From Punctularia strigosozonata HHB-11173 SS5 (taxonomy: Eukaryota; Basidiomycota; Agaricomycetes; Corticiales; Punctulariaceae): DNA of 64,000 bases. The translations under genes and the position numbers were made by a program. Positions 3,117 through 64,000 of the stretch are shown piece by piece; position 1 is the stretch's first letter, and the number at the start of each line of letters is the position of its first letter. The notes under the pieces were generated by a model, which saw nothing but the letters and a program-made list of their open reading frames with translations, searched no databases and was not told the origin of the DNA. The stretch covers positions 2,922,662-2,986,661 of the forward strand of contig NW_006767433.1 in assembly GCF_000264995.1 (NCBI RefSeq), written 5' to 3'.

Positions 3117-3816
3117 CCGACATCGGCCGGCGGATCTCGACGACGGGCTTTGAAGACCCACTTATGGGGTACTGAGCGGGTGCTCACGGGTCGCTGACTG
3201 GACCGCTCAATCTGCATCGGTATGGAATTTGAAACTCTCGCCTCCTCAGTCGGAAAAAGAGTAATTGAAATTCTATCCTGTGTTTTCACCTCACGCATTC
3301 TTGAAAATCTAACATATCGTATATGCCTAATTGTTCTTATAATGTAGCTGTAGATACGCTCATCGTGTTCATTTTGAATTCCCTATTCATTAATTCTGGA
3401 AATGCTGAAAGGCGTGCTGAATACACGAGATTATAAAATACAGATATTTGTTTCCTTCTTTTGTGATTGAGCGACCGATCTTCAAAATCTCATCCGCGCA
3501 CGGTTATAAATTCAACACATATCTGAACTCTGATCCCACCGCCGTGATAGGGCCGCTACCTCATAGAGTCATAGCGTTTGTACTCAGTACATTACACGGC
3601 GATCACTGACAGTAAGCCGCGAACGGCGCGACCGTGCATTGAGCAGTGATCATGTCCGCGAATCGGCGGAACGAGATGTTCAATCTATCCCTTCGGCACC
3701 TTTCTCTTGACGAGCTCTAAATTACCTGCCTTGCTGCTAGTTATTTTTTGCCATTTATGGTCGAGGCAACAGATGCAGAACTCTCAATACCGCTTCCATG
3801 CGCTTGAGGCAATGGC
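3117..3816. other. Intergenic, AT-richer, no gene seen
   Basis: No open frame here resembles a known protein. The stretch between about 3230 and 3540 is clearly AT-richer than the flanks. An 8-base inverted repeat (GATCACTG at 3601-3608 and CAGTGATC at 3644-3651) is the only structure noted. The 3' untranslated region of the minus-strand RRP15 gene must lie at the right side. Confidence 0.6.
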
Positions 3817-53001: not shown

Positions 53002-53967
53002 GAGAGATGTTGCACGGCGGCAGAGGACTCGTCCGTTGGTTCTCCCACCTCGAGAAGCTGTTGGTTTCCTTTTTTGGACATGGCAGCTCGAGCACGTCGA
53101 GTTCCAGGCGAAGTTCGCTCGGGCCAAAAAGCGATGCCGCGTCACTCAGGGCCGGGCCCGCATCAAGCTCAACTCAAAAAAGGCCTTTGCCACCTAACCA
53201 CCACGCCCACCGTCGTCCTCGCCGTCGCCCACGACGACGAGCACGACCTCCGCGCCCGCTCCCGACGTCACTACCCACTGAACAGCGCCTCCGCAGTCTC
53301 TCCCCGCAACCCCGCTAGACCGTCGAACGTTGCTTGATATTGCCCGGGCGAGCGCCTCGTTCCGCCCCCGACACCGGCCGGCCAGTCAAGCAAGTCGTCG
53401 AGCGGCCCGCCATGTCTCTCAGCAGGATCTTGAACAACGACTCGGAGCCACCTACCCCCGCGTTTTCGCCGCCGAAGCCGCCTCCGACGACGGCCGATGC
53501 CCCAGCGATCAGCAGCTCGCGGCCGAGGCGCGCGACGATATCGCCTCGCCGGTCTCCCCCGCGCCCTCTTAACGAGCATCCGCCCGTGCCCCGAGGAGCC
53601 GCATACCAACCCCCGCTATACGAAGGCGCCGGTGGCTATGATCCATACTCGGGAGAGCATGTGCAAGGGAACATGTTTCCGCTTGGACAAGGCGGGAACT
53701 ACTATCGACAACGAGGCCCGGGGCAGCCCCCTCCCGAAGACGACGACAACACGGAGGAGGAGTCCTATGGCGGAAGGAAAAATGGCGACACCTCTGGCAG
53801 GAGGAAGAAAAAGGCGACGCAGGACGATGAAGACTACCAGCCAGCGACCAGACGCGTAAGTGCATGTTACTTGCCAAGATGCACGGCCCGCTCACAACGT
53901 TCACGGGAAGTCGTCAAGGCGGACGTCGTCAAAAACCAAGCAGCAACAGCGACCTCCCTCACCTCCA
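53002..53967 (+). repeat. Copy 1 of a 966-bp duplicated segment (INO80 5' end), probable assembly artefact
   Basis: This segment is identical, base for base where compared, to 54286-55251. It ends exactly at the start of the run of N. It contains the INO80 start ([21 protein letters not shown] at 53412) and first intron, but the gene cannot continue through the gap. Two identical contig ends flanking an N run are the usual sign of an unmerged overlap. Confidence 0.9.
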
Positions 53968-54285
53968 NNNNNNNNNNNNNNNNNNNNNNNNNNNNNNNNN
54001 NNNNNNNNNNNNNNNNNNNNNNNNNNNNNNNNNNNNNNNNNNNNNNNNNNNNNNNNNNNNNNNNNNNNNNNNNNNNNNNNNNNNNNNNNNNNNNNNNNNN
54101 NNNNNNNNNNNNNNNNNNNNNNNNNNNNNNNNNNNNNNNNNNNNNNNNNNNNNNNNNNNNNNNNNNNNNNNNNNNNNNNNNNNNNNNNNNNNNNNNNNNN
54201 NNNNNNNNNNNNNNNNNNNNNNNNNNNNNNNNNNNNNNNNNNNNNNNNNNNNNNNNNNNNNNNNNNNNNNNNNNNNNNNNNNNNN
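53968..54285. other. Assembly gap (318 N)
   Basis: All bases are N. Sequence on the left (ending CTCACCTCCA) continues in the second copy at 55251, so the gap probably represents no real DNA. Confidence 0.98.
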
Positions 54286-55251
54286 GAGAGATGTTGCACG
54301 GCGGCAGAGGACTCGTCCGTTGGTTCTCCCACCTCGAGAAGCTGTTGGTTTCCTTTTTTGGACATGGCAGCTCGAGCACGTCGAGTTCCAGGCGAAGTTC
54401 GCTCGGGCCAAAAAGCGATGCCGCGTCACTCAGGGCCGGGCCCGCATCAAGCTCAACTCAAAAAAGGCCTTTGCCACCTAACCACCACGCCCACCGTCGT
54501 CCTCGCCGTCGCCCACGACGACGAGCACGACCTCCGCGCCCGCTCCCGACGTCACTACCCACTGAACAGCGCCTCCGCAGTCTCTCCCCGCAACCCCGCT
54601 AGACCGTCGAACGTTGCTTGATATTGCCCGGGCGAGCGCCTCGTTCCGCCCCCGACACCGGCCGGCCAGTCAAGCAAGTCGTCGAGCGGCCCGCCATGTC
54701 TCTCAGCAGGATCTTGAACAACGACTCGGAGCCACCTACCCCCGCGTTTTCGCCGCCGAAGCCGCCTCCGACGACGGCCGATGCCCCAGCGATCAGCAGC
54801 TCGCGGCCGAGGCGCGCGACGATATCGCCTCGCCGGTCTCCCCCGCGCCCTCTTAACGAGCATCCGCCCGTGCCCCGAGGAGCCGCATACCAACCCCCGC
54901 TATACGAAGGCGCCGGTGGCTATGATCCATACTCGGGAGAGCATGTGCAAGGGAACATGTTTCCGCTTGGACAAGGCGGGAACTACTATCGACAACGAGG
55001 CCCGGGGCAGCCCCCTCCCGAAGACGACGACAACACGGAGGAGGAGTCCTATGGCGGAAGGAAAAATGGCGACACCTCTGGCAGGAGGAAGAAAAAGGCG
55101 ACGCAGGACGATGAAGACTACCAGCCAGCGACCAGACGCGTAAGTGCATGTTACTTGCCAAGATGCACGGCCCGCTCACAACGTTCACGGGAAGTCGTCA
55201 AGGCGGACGTCGTCAAAAACCAAGCAGCAACAGCGACCTCCCTCACCTCCA
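54286..55251 (+). repeat. Copy 2 of the 966-bp duplicated segment
   Basis: It starts directly after the N run and is identical to 53002-53967, at an offset of 1284. This copy leads into the complete INO80 gene and should be taken as the real 5' end. Confidence 0.9.
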
Positions 55252-58200
55252 GGACATGCAAGGCAGCTCACCCCCGAGCCTTATATTCCTACTGAGGAAG
55301 AGCGAAGACTCGCGTCATCCGATCTGGATGACTGCGAGGAGGTTTGGCTGGGCGAACTCGCCGATTACATGGTTGAAACACGAAAGCGGCAGAAGCAGGT
55401 CGGAACCTGGTTCGAAATCAGTTGCGTGGTGAGTTATCCTGCTCAAAGTACATCTCCGCTGGGCTGAATGTTCATCACATTAGGAACGTAACAATGAGAT
55501 TGCTCGCATGATGTCCCAGCATTACGCCTCACGGTTAGCAACCATGCCTCCTCCGCCGCCTATTCCTATGTACCCTTTGGTCGTCCCGGCCGACAATCGG
55601 CACTCCGCCATTCACGAACGCTCACCCTCAGTGGTATCTGTGGACGAGTTCGAGTCTCTTGACGGCGACGAATGGGATCAATCTTCGCATCGCCATGCGC
55701 ACTCGCAAGATGATTTCAACAGCGCCGAGGATGCTGCTCGGGCGTTGGAAGATTTCGCGCTCGGTCGTGGGGGGCTGCCAGTAGGCGCAAAGAGACCCGC
55801 TGCTGGACCCTTTTCCGACAGCGGTAGTGATCTGGAGGTTCCCGTTCGCAAGTCGCACTCTCGCAAGCGACGAAGGCTGGGCGTTAGTGGAGAGGACATT
55901 GCCGCCGAGCTTGAGCGCGCCGCAGACCAGCTTACACCGTACGATCAACCGTACCTACCTGGCCACGCTCCTTCCATCTCTGCCATGGGCAAGGGCAAGA
56001 ATAAGCAAATACCTGCCGACCAACGAAGTGTGGATAGTGCTACTTCTACGCCCAGGGGCCACCGAGGCAAGAAGAAAAAGACGTTTCCACCACATACGCA
56101 AGATGGGCTCATGGAACCCTCCGCGTCGACCTCCGCATCGCGTGGTGGGACACCGTCTGCGTCCGGGCCTGCGTCACCTGCACTCACGGCATCCACTCTT
56201 CTGGAGCTCGATGAACCTATTCCGGCTATGAAAAAGGCGAGGAAGGCCGATCACGCCACCTTATTGAAGCGAGTCAAGGCCCTCGAAGAGTCTCAGCGGA
56301 AGGTATGGCTTACCATCGCGAGAAAGGACGTTGTCAAGGTGAGCTCAGTTGAGTGGCTGCCGATCATATGCACACCCATCATCATATTGTTGCAGGTCTA
56401 CCGGTATCACGCGTTGGGTTATCAAGCACGGCAGGCACAACATAAACGGCTTGCGACTCTGGCTTCCATCCAGGCTCGTCGGCCCTTCACGAAGACACCC
56501 AGGAACGCCAAGGACGTACAGAGCCGAGGCAAGCGACTCATGCGCGAAATGCTAATCTCATGGAAGAAGAATGAGAAGGAGGAACGCGACTGGCGTAAAC
56601 GGCAGCTTAAGGAAGACCTTGACCGGCAGAAAATGGAAGAAGAGAAACGAGAGGCTGCGAGACAGGCCAGGAAACTGGAGTTCTTGATCAGCCAAACGGA
56701 GCTCTACAGCCACTTTGTTGGGAGCAAGCTCAAGAGTGCGCGTTGACCTACATCTGGTGCTTACATTTCACTCATAAGTGCTCAGCTGCCGAAATTGAGG
56801 GAGAAGATGCTTTGGCGGCCAATGCACCACCGGGCGCTGACTATCTGCGCACTCCAAGTGGCTCGCTGAAGGAAATCGACTTCGATGACGGTACGGAACA
56901 CGGCATTGCGCGTATTCTTGGACTGATTTGGCTCGCAGATGACGAAACAAACCTGTACAATCACGCCAGCCGCAATGCGCAAGAAGCTCTTGCGCTGGCC
57001 AAGGCCAAGGCACAGCAGTTTGATTCTCAGGCTGCTTTGGAGCGGAAGACCAACCAGGCACTCAAGTTGGCGAAAGGCCAGGCACATGTCCGTGAGGACT
57101 CGGAGTCACCGTCGGCTTCGGGAGCTGCTACGACATCAGCCACACCGCTTGTTGATCGTCAGTGCTCCTCACATATTCGGAAGGCACTGTATTGAAATGT
57201 GTTCGCAGTGGATTCCGACGAGCTCAACTTCCAAAATCCCACGTCTCTAGGGGAATTGACCATACAACAACCTGCAATGCTCATGGCGCAGCTTAAAGAG
57301 TATCAGCTCAAGGGTCTCAACTGGCTTGCGACGTTATACGAGCAGGGAATCAACGGCATTCTGGCCGATGAGATGGGTGCGCGCCTTCCTCTTGCCCTTG
57401 CAACAGACTCGCTCACACTTGCGTATTCTAGGTCTGGGCAAGGTAAACTATATTCTGATTCATAACAACAAACCTGACTGACTGTGGCATACAGACTGTA
57501 CAGTCCATTTCTCTCTTGGCTTACCTCGCAGAGAAACACGACATTTGGGGACCATTCTTGGTCGTATCACCGGCGTCGACGTTGCACAACTGGCAGCAGG
57601 AACTCACTCGATTCGTGCCGAATCTTAAAGCCCTGCCTTACTGGGGCACAGTGAAAGACCGTGCCACGCTACGCAAGGTTTGGAGCAAGAAGGATATCAG
57701 CTATGACAAGGACGCACCCTTTCACGTGCTTATCACTAGCTACCAGTTGGTATGTAATCGCGTGTTGGGTCGAGTTAACTTTTTCTGATAGTACTGCAGA
57801 TCACCCAAGATCAGCAGTACTTCCAGCGATTGAAGTGGCAATACATGATTCTTGATGAAGCTCAAAACATCAAGAACTCCGCTAGTGTACGATGGAAGAC
57901 CCTTCTTGGCATGAACTGCCGCAATCGCCTTTTGCTTACTGGAACACCCATTCAAAACTCCATGCAGGGTGAGCAGGCTTCGATTTATGTTGTGTCTTGA
58001 AACGTTTGTATTAACCGGCGCAGAGCTATGGGCGCTTCTCCACTTCATCATGCCTAGTCTATTCGATTCACATGATGAGTTTAACGAATGGTTCTCGAAG
58101 GACATCGAGGGCGCAGCAGAAGGCAAAGGGAGTAGACTCAGCGAACATCAACTGCGTCGTTTACATATGATTCTCAAACCTTTCATGTTGCGTCGAGTCA

Positions 58201-60368
58201 AGCGACATGTCCAGAATGAGCTCAGCGAAAAGGTATCTGTATCCCGGCATCAGGAGATCGTACACTAATAATGTCGGTCAAGATCGAGAAGGATATTTAC
58301 GTGGACCTCAGCGCAAGGCAACGATCGCTGTACAGAGCGCTCCTGTCCAATGTCTCCGTCACGGAATTGCTGGAACGTGCGGCAAACATAGGTGATCCCG
58401 ACTCCGCTCGATCTCTCATGAACCTTGTCATGCAGTTCCGCAAAGTACGTGTAGGTTATCATGGTACCCGACAATTCTCTAATCGCAACTTAGGTCTGCA
58501 ACCACCCCGAGCTTTTCGAGCGTGCCGACGTCATAGCCCCTTTTTCGTTCGCCGAATTTGGTCGGTCAGGACCGTTGAACCGCGACGGCGATTTCGTTCA
58601 CCTCGCTTACTCAACGCGCAATCCCATCGAGTACAAATTACCCAATCTATTCTACCGCGAAGGCGGTTTAGTCGGCATTCCAGCTGAGGATTCCCATCCG
58701 CACTTCCAGAGGGGGTCCCTTCATCGCCTGATGAATATATGGGATACGGAGCGCATATATCACTCCCTGGTTGCAGACAGTATGCTTGATGCTTTCTGAC
58801 TTACGTACATCGCTGAACTGCCTATAGATGATTCCTCTTTTGCCTTCCTTCGCCTGCTCAACACTTCACCAGGGGAAGTCCATAAGATCTGTGTTTCGCC
58901 ACTCATACGTCGACATCTGTCCGCCACTATCGAGCGTGCGGAGCAGGCGCAAGACACATCCTGGTTGTACGTATTTGGTGAATCACTATGTTCAATCAAT
59001 ATTGACGCTGCGTTTTAGGGAATCCACCTGTTCCGATATCCTGGAAGCAGGCCACTTCACTCCCCTTCTCAACGATGTTCTTCTAGAAGGTTTTCCAGCG
59101 TTACGACGGATATCTACGACTATCTGGAACGAGTCACCTTTATCTCGTGCTATCATGAGGCTCTATGTGCCTCCAGCTGTAGCACCTCCGATATCCGTTC
59201 ACTGCACCGATCGCTCTTTCCTGGAACACCAGTCACGCGTGCTTGATGCGCCCTTGGCTTCATTGGCACTGTACGGACTCCCTCCTACGCTCGTGAACTC
59301 CGAGAACGCAACAGAAATTTATCAAGAATTGCTACCCGGAGCCCCGGTCACTGGTCTGCTTGCGTCATCTGGAGATGACCAACTCCCGATGTCGGTCATG
59401 CAAGTTCCTGATGCCAAGCGATTGATCTACGACTCAGCGAAATTGGCCCGCTTGGATTCACTACTCCAAGAGCTGAAGGCTGGAGACCATCGCGTGCTCA
59501 TTTACTCCCAGATGACACGGATGCTTGACCTGATGGAAGAGTACCTGGTTTTCCGGCAGCACAAATATCTCCGATTAGACGGCTCGTCCAAACTAGAAGA
59601 CAGGCGGGATATGGTCATTGAATGGCAAACAAGGTATATCGGTCCGGTATTATGGAGTGTGCCGGCGCTTATTCTGTCAAGGCCGGATATATTCGTCTTC
59701 CTTCTCAGCACGCGCGCGGGCGGGTTGGGTATCAACCTCACGGCCGCTGACACGGTGATATTCTACGATCACGATTGGAACCCCTCGAACGATGCGCAGG
59801 CTATGGATCGTGCTCATCGACTAGGGCAGACTCGCCAAGTGACTGTATACCGTTTAATCACCAAAGGCACTATAGACGAGCGCATCGTGCAGCTGGCCCG
59901 TGTGAAGAAAGATGTACGCCAAGTCCTGTCCTGATCTGTTGAAAATCCCTTACACGTTGCACGCAGGTCCAAGATATCGTGGTTGGTAACAAGAATCTCA
60001 CCGACGTCACCAAACCTAGCGACATCGTCTCGTTATTACTCAACGACGATCAACTGGCAAACCTAGAATCTTCCGCGAAGAGGTCCGCCAGGAACTTGGG
60101 CAAGCAACCAGCGGATGCAGGGGCCAACGCGGTTAATGATATCTGGAATGATGAGGGCGACGAATTTTTCAGTAATCAGAAGGGTGCTCAGGAGGTGGGG
60201 GCTGCTCTGGAGTCGGTTGTCGAGGATACCGGAGCGGTCCCCACAAAGGGTCGGAAACGCGGGCAGAAGCGTGATCCGAATGCGCCGAGGCGCAAGCCAG
60301 GACCGAAACCTGGCACGAGAAGGAAGAGGGATACTGGGGGAACCAATACCCCGCTTGCAAATTCATGA
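54696..60368 (+). CDS. INO80: INO80 chromatin-remodelling ATPase
   Basis: INO80 is the Snf2-family motor that slides nucleosomes and exchanges H2A.Z. Exon 1 (54696-55139) starts [18 protein letters not shown]. The disordered N-terminus is followed by the DBINO domain ([20 protein letters not shown], then [20 protein letters not shown]). The ATPase has [26 protein letters not shown], the Walker A GLGKTVQS assembled over an 11-base exon, [10 protein letters not shown] (DEAQ box) and LLTGTPIQN. The large INO80 insertion between the lobes is present. Lobe 2 has [39 protein letters not shown] and [18 protein letters not shown]. The tail is basic ([20 protein letters not shown]). There are about 15 exons. 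A false second copy of the 5' end lies upstream. Confidence 0.95.
57432..57442 (+). other. 11-nt micro-exon coding the Walker A GLGK of INO80
   Basis: The exon GTCTGGGCAAG lies between introns 57377-57431 (55 nt, GTGCGC...TTCTAG) and 57443-57494 (52 nt, GTAAAC...TACAG). Joining the exons gives [20 protein letters not shown], the invariant Snf2 motif I. Skipping it would remove the ATP-binding lysine and shift the frame. Confidence 0.92.
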
Positions 60369-63600: not shown

Positions 63601-64000
63601 CCAGCATGCGTAATGCGATTCCGTACGTAACGAATGCCAGACGGGTCGTTTTAGAGGTGTTGCTCTCAAGCCGTATAGAGTATCCCACCAGGGAACCGAC
63701 ACATCCGACAGAACCTGGAGGGTCACCCAGCTCCCCGGATACGCGTTGAGCGAGAGATATAGCCGAGATACGGCGTGGTTCCGTGCAGTATATCTTACAA
63801 TGCTTGCCCTGCGATAACTGATCTTCAAGTATGAATGACGGAACTTGCGTTGACTTCCCGCTGTGAAGGCTTGATCGAACGGATGGGTGGATGGGAACGA
63901 CATAAGGCTCACCACCCTGTTTCCCCGCTGAGCACGAGAACCTGGGAAGAATCCAAAGTGTTCAGTATCTCTTGTCGGTATTGCGCGATCGGCAACTGGT
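60663..64000 (-). CDS. DEAH/RHA-type RNA helicase (DHX29/DHX57/YLR419W-like), 5' end beyond window
   Basis: The gene runs in from the right edge, so its N-terminus is missing. Motifs in order are [15 protein letters not shown], Walker [16 protein letters not shown] (split by an intron after the Cys codon), [19 protein letters not shown], the motif [13 protein letters not shown] (split by an intron), [10 protein letters not shown], and later [14 protein letters not shown] and [10 protein letters not shown]. The winged-helix, ratchet and OB-fold parts follow ([20 protein letters not shown], then [19 protein letters not shown]). The end [19 protein letters not shown] is characteristic of the DHX29/DHX57/YLR419W group, whose members act in translation initiation or RNA surveillance. 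Exons are many and short. Assignment to one member of the group needs the missing N-terminus. Confidence 0.88.
63481..63498 (-). other. 18-nt micro-exon coding HIVIDE of helicase motif II
   Basis: The exon CATATCGTGATCGACGAA lies between introns 63550-63499 (52 nt, GTAAGC...TTAAAG) and 63480-63431 (50 nt, GTACAT...GTGCAG). Joining exons gives [20 protein letters not shown], the expected DEAH-family sequence. Confidence 0.9.

Follow-up and report, generated by a model that had tools for sequence, protein, structure and literature searches.

A probable 11-nt micro-exon in the P-loop of INO80 from Punctularia strigosozonata and the crowding of introns in motif I of SNF2 genes

How does the INO80 gene of the fungus Punctularia strigosozonata HHB-11173 SS5 encode the ATP-binding loop of its chromatin remodeler, and could the arrangement serve regulation? 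In the window (the whole 64,000-nt stretch of contig NW_006767433.1 that was analyzed), the reading frame of this gene breaks between the residues ADEM and TVQS. An initial annotation proposed that the missing GLGK comes from an 11-nt exon and that splicing of this exon is an on/off switch for the remodeler. We argue that the 11 nt are probably a constitutive micro-exon, left between two spliceosomal introns that lie 11 nt apart in an intron hotspot of SNF2 genes. The micro-exon is most likely not a switch but a side effect of intron crowding in this gene family, and the hotspot is more interesting than the micro-exon itself.

We modeled splicing by profile-guided spliced alignment for INO80 and for 22 SNF2 paralog loci in the same genome. 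The INO80 model has a complete open reading frame (Table 1), and the predicted protein contains a DBINO domain (residues 494-625), a full-length SNF2-rel_dom (764-1064, matching positions 1-290 of 290), and a Helicase_C domain (1340-1452), which is the combination that marks an INO80 ATPase. When the ATPase lobe was compared to PDB sequences, the top eight matches were INO80 (E 4e-137 to 8e-122) and the next was SRCAP (3e-82), so the nearest solved homologs are also INO80. Across motif I, the spliced sequence aligns without gaps to 8euf_Q (Chromatin-remodeling ATPase INO80, E 4e-137) and to 6fhs_G (Ino80). These are the top two of the PDB relatives shown, and both read DEMGLGKT without an insertion.

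Separately, the assembly around the start of the gene is unusual. Positions 53002-53967 and 54286-55251 of the window are identical at 966/966 bases, they flank a run of Ns (53968-54285), and the repeat covers the INO80 start. These are most likely two contig ends with an unmerged overlap, in which case the gap and the first copy of the repeat may not be real.

Table 1. Features of INO80 and of one neighboring gene, with positions in the window. Percentiles are relative to the 95 modeled introns described in the text.
Feature	Position	Strand	Description	Basis or percentile
INO80 gene, ATG to stop	54696..60368	+	17 exons, 16 introns of 48-57 nt, 1,614 aa	Splice model, Pfam, PDB
INO80 intron 4 acceptor	56785	+		Splice model
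INO80 exon 7	57209..57376	+	Ends ...LADEM plus the first base of the Gly codon (phase 1)	
INO80 intron 7	57377..57431	+	55 nt, GTGCGC...CTCAC...TTCTAG	Donor 52nd, acceptor 73rd, length 46th percentile
INO80 micro-exon 8	57432..57442	+	11 nt, GTCTGGGCAAG; G from exon 7 plus exon 8 gives GLGK of Walker A	
INO80 intron 8	57443..57494	+	52 nt, GTAAAC...CTGAC...ATACAG, donor weak at +5	Donor 9th, acceptor 95th, length 29th percentile
INO80 exon 9	57495..57749	+	Starts TVQSISLLA (phase 0)	
Intron splitting Walker A of neighboring DExH-type helicase gene	63861..63912	-	52 nt, SGETGCGKSTQVP, phase 2 in Cys codon	

We enumerated the splice paths across the break, with zero to two introns of at least 30 nt, GT or GC donors, and AG acceptors. 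Of the paths that preserve the frame, 21 in all, only one reads LADEMGLGKTVQS, which restores DEMGLGKTVQS. This is the micro-exon path, in which the junctions are ...GATGAGATGG|GTGCGC...TTCTAG|GTCTGGGCAAG|GTAAAC...ATACAG|ACTGTACAG. At the level of the sequence, the proposed source of GLGK is confirmed to the nucleotide. If base frequencies are equal, then about 2e-5 frame-correct stretches of the form AG-11 nt-GT that encode GLGK are expected in the interval. Exon 8 is also well under the limit of about 30 nt that we used for micro-exons, has canonical GT-AG introns on both sides, and is required for an invariant motif.

To explain this structure, we propose that two spliceosomal introns came to sit 11 nt apart within the P-loop codons of INO80. 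Both short introns would presumably be recognized by intron definition and excised one after the other, which would restore DEMGLGKT. Mis-splicing would give truncated frames, presumably removed as nonsense transcripts (such transcripts are cleared by nonsense-mediated decay). Because wrong splicing truncates the protein, purifying selection would keep the exon and its splice sites. The initial annotation viewed 11 nt as close to the smallest size that exon definition allows, but this is the wrong frame here: intron definition is expected for introns of around 50 nt, and those of this gene are 48-57 nt. Also, a paralog (L050) seems to have even smaller exons.

In L050 (C1:2107700-2116600, locus positions 3570-3759), whose best PDB match is RAD5 (residues 49-166 of the submitted piece), restoring motif I appears to require two exons, of 5 nt (TGACG) and 3 nt (AGA), set among three short introns. 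We enumerated paths with one to three introns, of which 21 keep the frame, and the sole one that reads LADEMGMGKT uses both of these putative exons. It has the top summed splice score (8.3), but this is a sum over three introns; a rival path with two introns scores 7.3 and reads LADHDSTYNLTLSSLRLSEMGMGKT. If the 3-nt exon is left out, the sequence reads LADVGMGKT. In other models, a 22-nt exon holds most of the P-loop (L049) or a 26-nt exon starts with GKT (L040). L049 (C3:850700-858800) is far more fragmented than most of the paralogs: its model has seven exons of 21-32 nt and places 13 introns in the ATPase lobe.

These small exons belong to a broader pattern. Across the genome (33.6 Mb in 32 contigs), we grouped 43 PF00176 matches by hand into 23 SNF2 genes, including INO80. 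The 123 modeled introns include 28 that are outside of 43-80 nt or have a GC donor, which we left out of the counts; the other 95 (43-80 nt, GT donors) include the introns of INO80 and are our yardstick throughout. Introns of this kind lie inside the nine codons ADEMGLGKT in 17 of the 23 genes, or in 18 if a 117-nt intron in L045 is counted. (The 17 include INO80 itself and L051, whose motif-I intron has poor splice signals and is doubtful; L042, L047, and L051 are the lowest-scoring loci and have the least certain models.) The genes without a motif-I intron are L041, L042, L046, L047, and L048. Overall, motif I makes up about 3.6% of the domain and holds 20 of the 95 introns. If introns were placed uniformly, then a mean of 3.3 genes would have an intron in motif I (maximum of 11 in 20,000 trials), and even the best of all 9-codon windows would average 7.8 genes under random placement (maximum of 12 in 1,000 trials). 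In the windows that we take to be motifs II, III, and Ia, introns are found in 7, 9, and 4 of the 23 genes, respectively; motif I differs from motif II with P = 0.007 and from motif III with P = 0.036 (Fisher exact tests).

Given this crowding, closely spaced introns are not surprising. A rate of 0.87 introns per gene in motif I predicts that about 5 of the 23 genes would have two or more, as compared to 0.16 at the background rate; the observed number is 2 (INO80 and L050), which is fewer than predicted. With two introns in the 27 nt of motif I, a tiny exon is necessarily left in INO80.

Is the hotspot specific to the P-loop? It is quite possible that the P-loop itself plays no special part, and that we see only the known tendency of introns to lie where sequence is conserved, or else a bias toward G|G junctions. 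No other 9-codon window of the domain is as conserved as motif I, and in this respect the caution in the initial annotation, that micro-exons are easiest to see where a motif is invariant, was well placed. Even without motif I, intron counts are weakly correlated with conservation (rho = 0.14, P = 0.03), and an excerpt of de Roos 2007 (PMC1800838) reports that the presence of introns is correlated with the ancientness of the sequence. However, motifs III and II, which are next in conservation, are interrupted less often, albeit with only a modest P value for motif III. Similarly, 15 codons outside of motif I match or exceed its median conservation, and they have 0.73 introns each, versus 2.2 for the codons of motif I and 0.38 overall. 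As for the junctions, G|G is indeed preferred, but it is split at 9 of 104 sites in motif I versus 16 of 1,047 elsewhere, and the other junction types are also raised in motif I, except for G|T (0 of 15). So, weighed separately, conservation and the G|G preference seem to fall short of the excess in motif I.

A comparison with other P-loop families also bears on this question. The Walker A motif of DEAD-box proteins is conserved as well, yet it is interrupted in only 6 of 31 domains, versus 18 of 23 SNF2 genes (P = 2e-5, Fisher exact test) or 17 of 23 (P = 8e-5). (All 6 interrupted DEAD-box motifs were read; of the 25 intact ones, 7 were read and 18 were judged from match ranges without stops.) This argues against conservation as the full explanation, and we also reject a hotspot that extends to all P-loop families. 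Among Ras-like GTPases, the P-loop is interrupted in 4 of the 5 pieces that we read (L067, L068, L069, and L071), which does not give a rate because the five were picked for late-starting matches; three of these introns split a Gly codon in phase 1 and one lies between K and S. Finally, the window has a second P-loop gene with the same kind of intron placement as INO80: a minus-strand helicase whose Walker A motif, SGETGCGKS, is split by a 52-nt intron. A joined piece of 99 amino acids from this gene has DHX29 as its best PDB match (22tu_DH, E 2e-23), and three short pieces gave no Pfam match.

We tentatively suggest that, in this fungus, introns really have been placed in the SNF2 P-loop many times and independently, to a degree beyond what conservation and G|G preference explain. 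Introns there may be favored or retained because a splicing failure would cleanly kill the ATPase and avoid partly active remodelers, with micro-exons of 3-26 nt as a by-product. We view this extension of our account as possible but doubtful.

How might the introns in motif I have arisen? Across the 18 genes, they lie at 13 different nucleotides within 27 nt (after nucleotides 2, 3, 7, 9, 10, 11, 12, 13, 14, 18, 20, and 24, and after nucleotide 1 in L045 only). A single ancestral intron at one position does not account for this: with 14 label states, no fewer than 13 changes are required, and 15 are required on the tree. Neither does an introner-like origin, as the mean local alignment score is 6.6 among the 20 motif-I introns versus 6.4 for the 75 others, and introns 7 and 8 score 7 against each other. 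The positions are mostly not common to near relatives, although L036 and L052, which likely form a clade, share one. The position labels are slightly clustered on the tree (values as low were seen in 4 of 200 shuffles), but only 2 of its 20 inner branches are well supported. Introns may have been gained here repeatedly, or a few old ones may have slid to new positions.

We also scanned bacterial and archaeal genomes: nine stretches matched and one of these encodes a relative of INO80 (JAIYDP010000477.1, 47% identity). Its P-loop is uninterrupted, which counts against our account, but it resembles a eukaryotic INO80 that is only distantly related. This record is titled as a Verrucomicrobiaceae MAG, but the DNA appears to be eukaryotic and to contain introns, so it is probably contamination.

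We now return to the proposal that the INO80 micro-exon is a switch. In this scenario, inclusion of the exon would be controlled, and skipping it or retaining an intron would lower INO80 via nonsense-mediated decay. Out of 1,615 codons (including the stop), the predicted stops are at codon 833 if the exon is skipped, 855 if intron 7 is retained, 805 if intron 8 is retained, and 818 if both are retained. Thus, skipping does remove the Walker lysine and shift the frame, as was proposed, and all four of the mis-spliced forms that we tested are truncated at codons 805-855, with none yielding an ATPase. Although truncation permits an on/off effect in principle, it is equally expected of any constitutive exon that is not a whole number of codons long, so these forms do not support a switch. 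Also, because 11 nt is not a multiple of three, skipping cannot give a second full protein.

The splice sites are more equivocal. They had been described as good, which is accurate for three of the four, but the donor of intron 8 (GTAAAC) lacks a G at +5 and is weak relative to the yardstick (Table 1). This is the sole feature that could fit inefficient or regulated splicing. There is also a precedent in a filamentous fungus: according to an excerpt of the study of Xlr2 from Trichoderma virens (PMC11121469), inclusion of its micro-exon responds to glucose, and the isoforms are functionally distinct. An Xlr2-type switch involves a working protein both with and without the exon, whereas skipping in INO80 only truncates the protein. 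Finally, a motif-I intron is also present in 16 of the 22 other SNF2 genes, which makes a purpose that is specific to INO80 less likely. Overall, a regulated switch is improbable.

Another splicing path that places part of GLGK in a longer exon is very unlikely. Two of the enumerated paths, which use a GC donor at 57383 or 57364, do keep the frame along with LGKT or GLGKT. However, the resulting proteins would have extra or substituted residues in the most conserved motif, while neither of the aligned PDB relatives has an insertion, and GC donors are rare. Least likely of all, to the point that we set it aside, is that the locus is misassembled or the gene decayed: the probable flaw, with 966 nt identical on both sides of the Ns, lies apart from the micro-exon, 2.2 kb upstream, the frame of 1,614 aa has no other defect and encodes all three domains, and both introns resemble the others in the genome, save for one weak donor.

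The constitutive micro-exon that we favor joins a known phenomenon, as micro-exons in the motifs of fungal P450s and in Trichoderma have already been described. An excerpt on fungal P450s (PMC12940212) describes an 8-nt exon in the I-helix motif of CYP5141A1 from Phanerochaete chrysosporium and a 1-nt exon in the PKG motif of CYP621A from Fusarium, which is supported by RNA. Like exon 8 of INO80, these are tiny exons in fungi with lengths that are not multiples of three, they encode part of an invariant motif, and they were identified because the motif cannot otherwise be assembled. The differences are that they are in P450s rather than in an SNF2 ATPase, and that the Fusarium exon has RNA support while the INO80 exon is predicted from sequence. 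The P450 genes of P. chrysosporium have introns of 45-55 bp and many exons of 2-10 codons, for which the authors suggested alternative splicing, according to an excerpt (PMC1184071). The very short introns are alike in INO80, where we argue instead that the exon is a by-product of intron placement. As for the hotspot, the excerpt of PMC1800838 describes introns as concentrated in ancient conserved protein modules, including Rab GTPases, and reports a 4-nt exon. That work seeks identical shared intron positions, whereas the SNF2 genes have their introns at varying positions within a single motif. Among the literature matches listed, judged by title or the start of the abstract, there was no report of the 11-nt exon in INO80, nor, in a search with most subscription papers outside its scope, of an intron hotspot in the SNF2 P-loop.

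Exons this small are often missed by automatic gene finders, as noted in the excerpt of PMC12940212, and a gene model that lacks micro-exon 8 would make the INO80 chromatin remodeler look broken. More broadly, because one motif is common to 23 genes, intron placement can be compared at homologous codons. As the same 27 nt have been struck repeatedly, at different nucleotides, ideas about intron gain, sliding, and retention could be tested on fungal genomes with RNA data.
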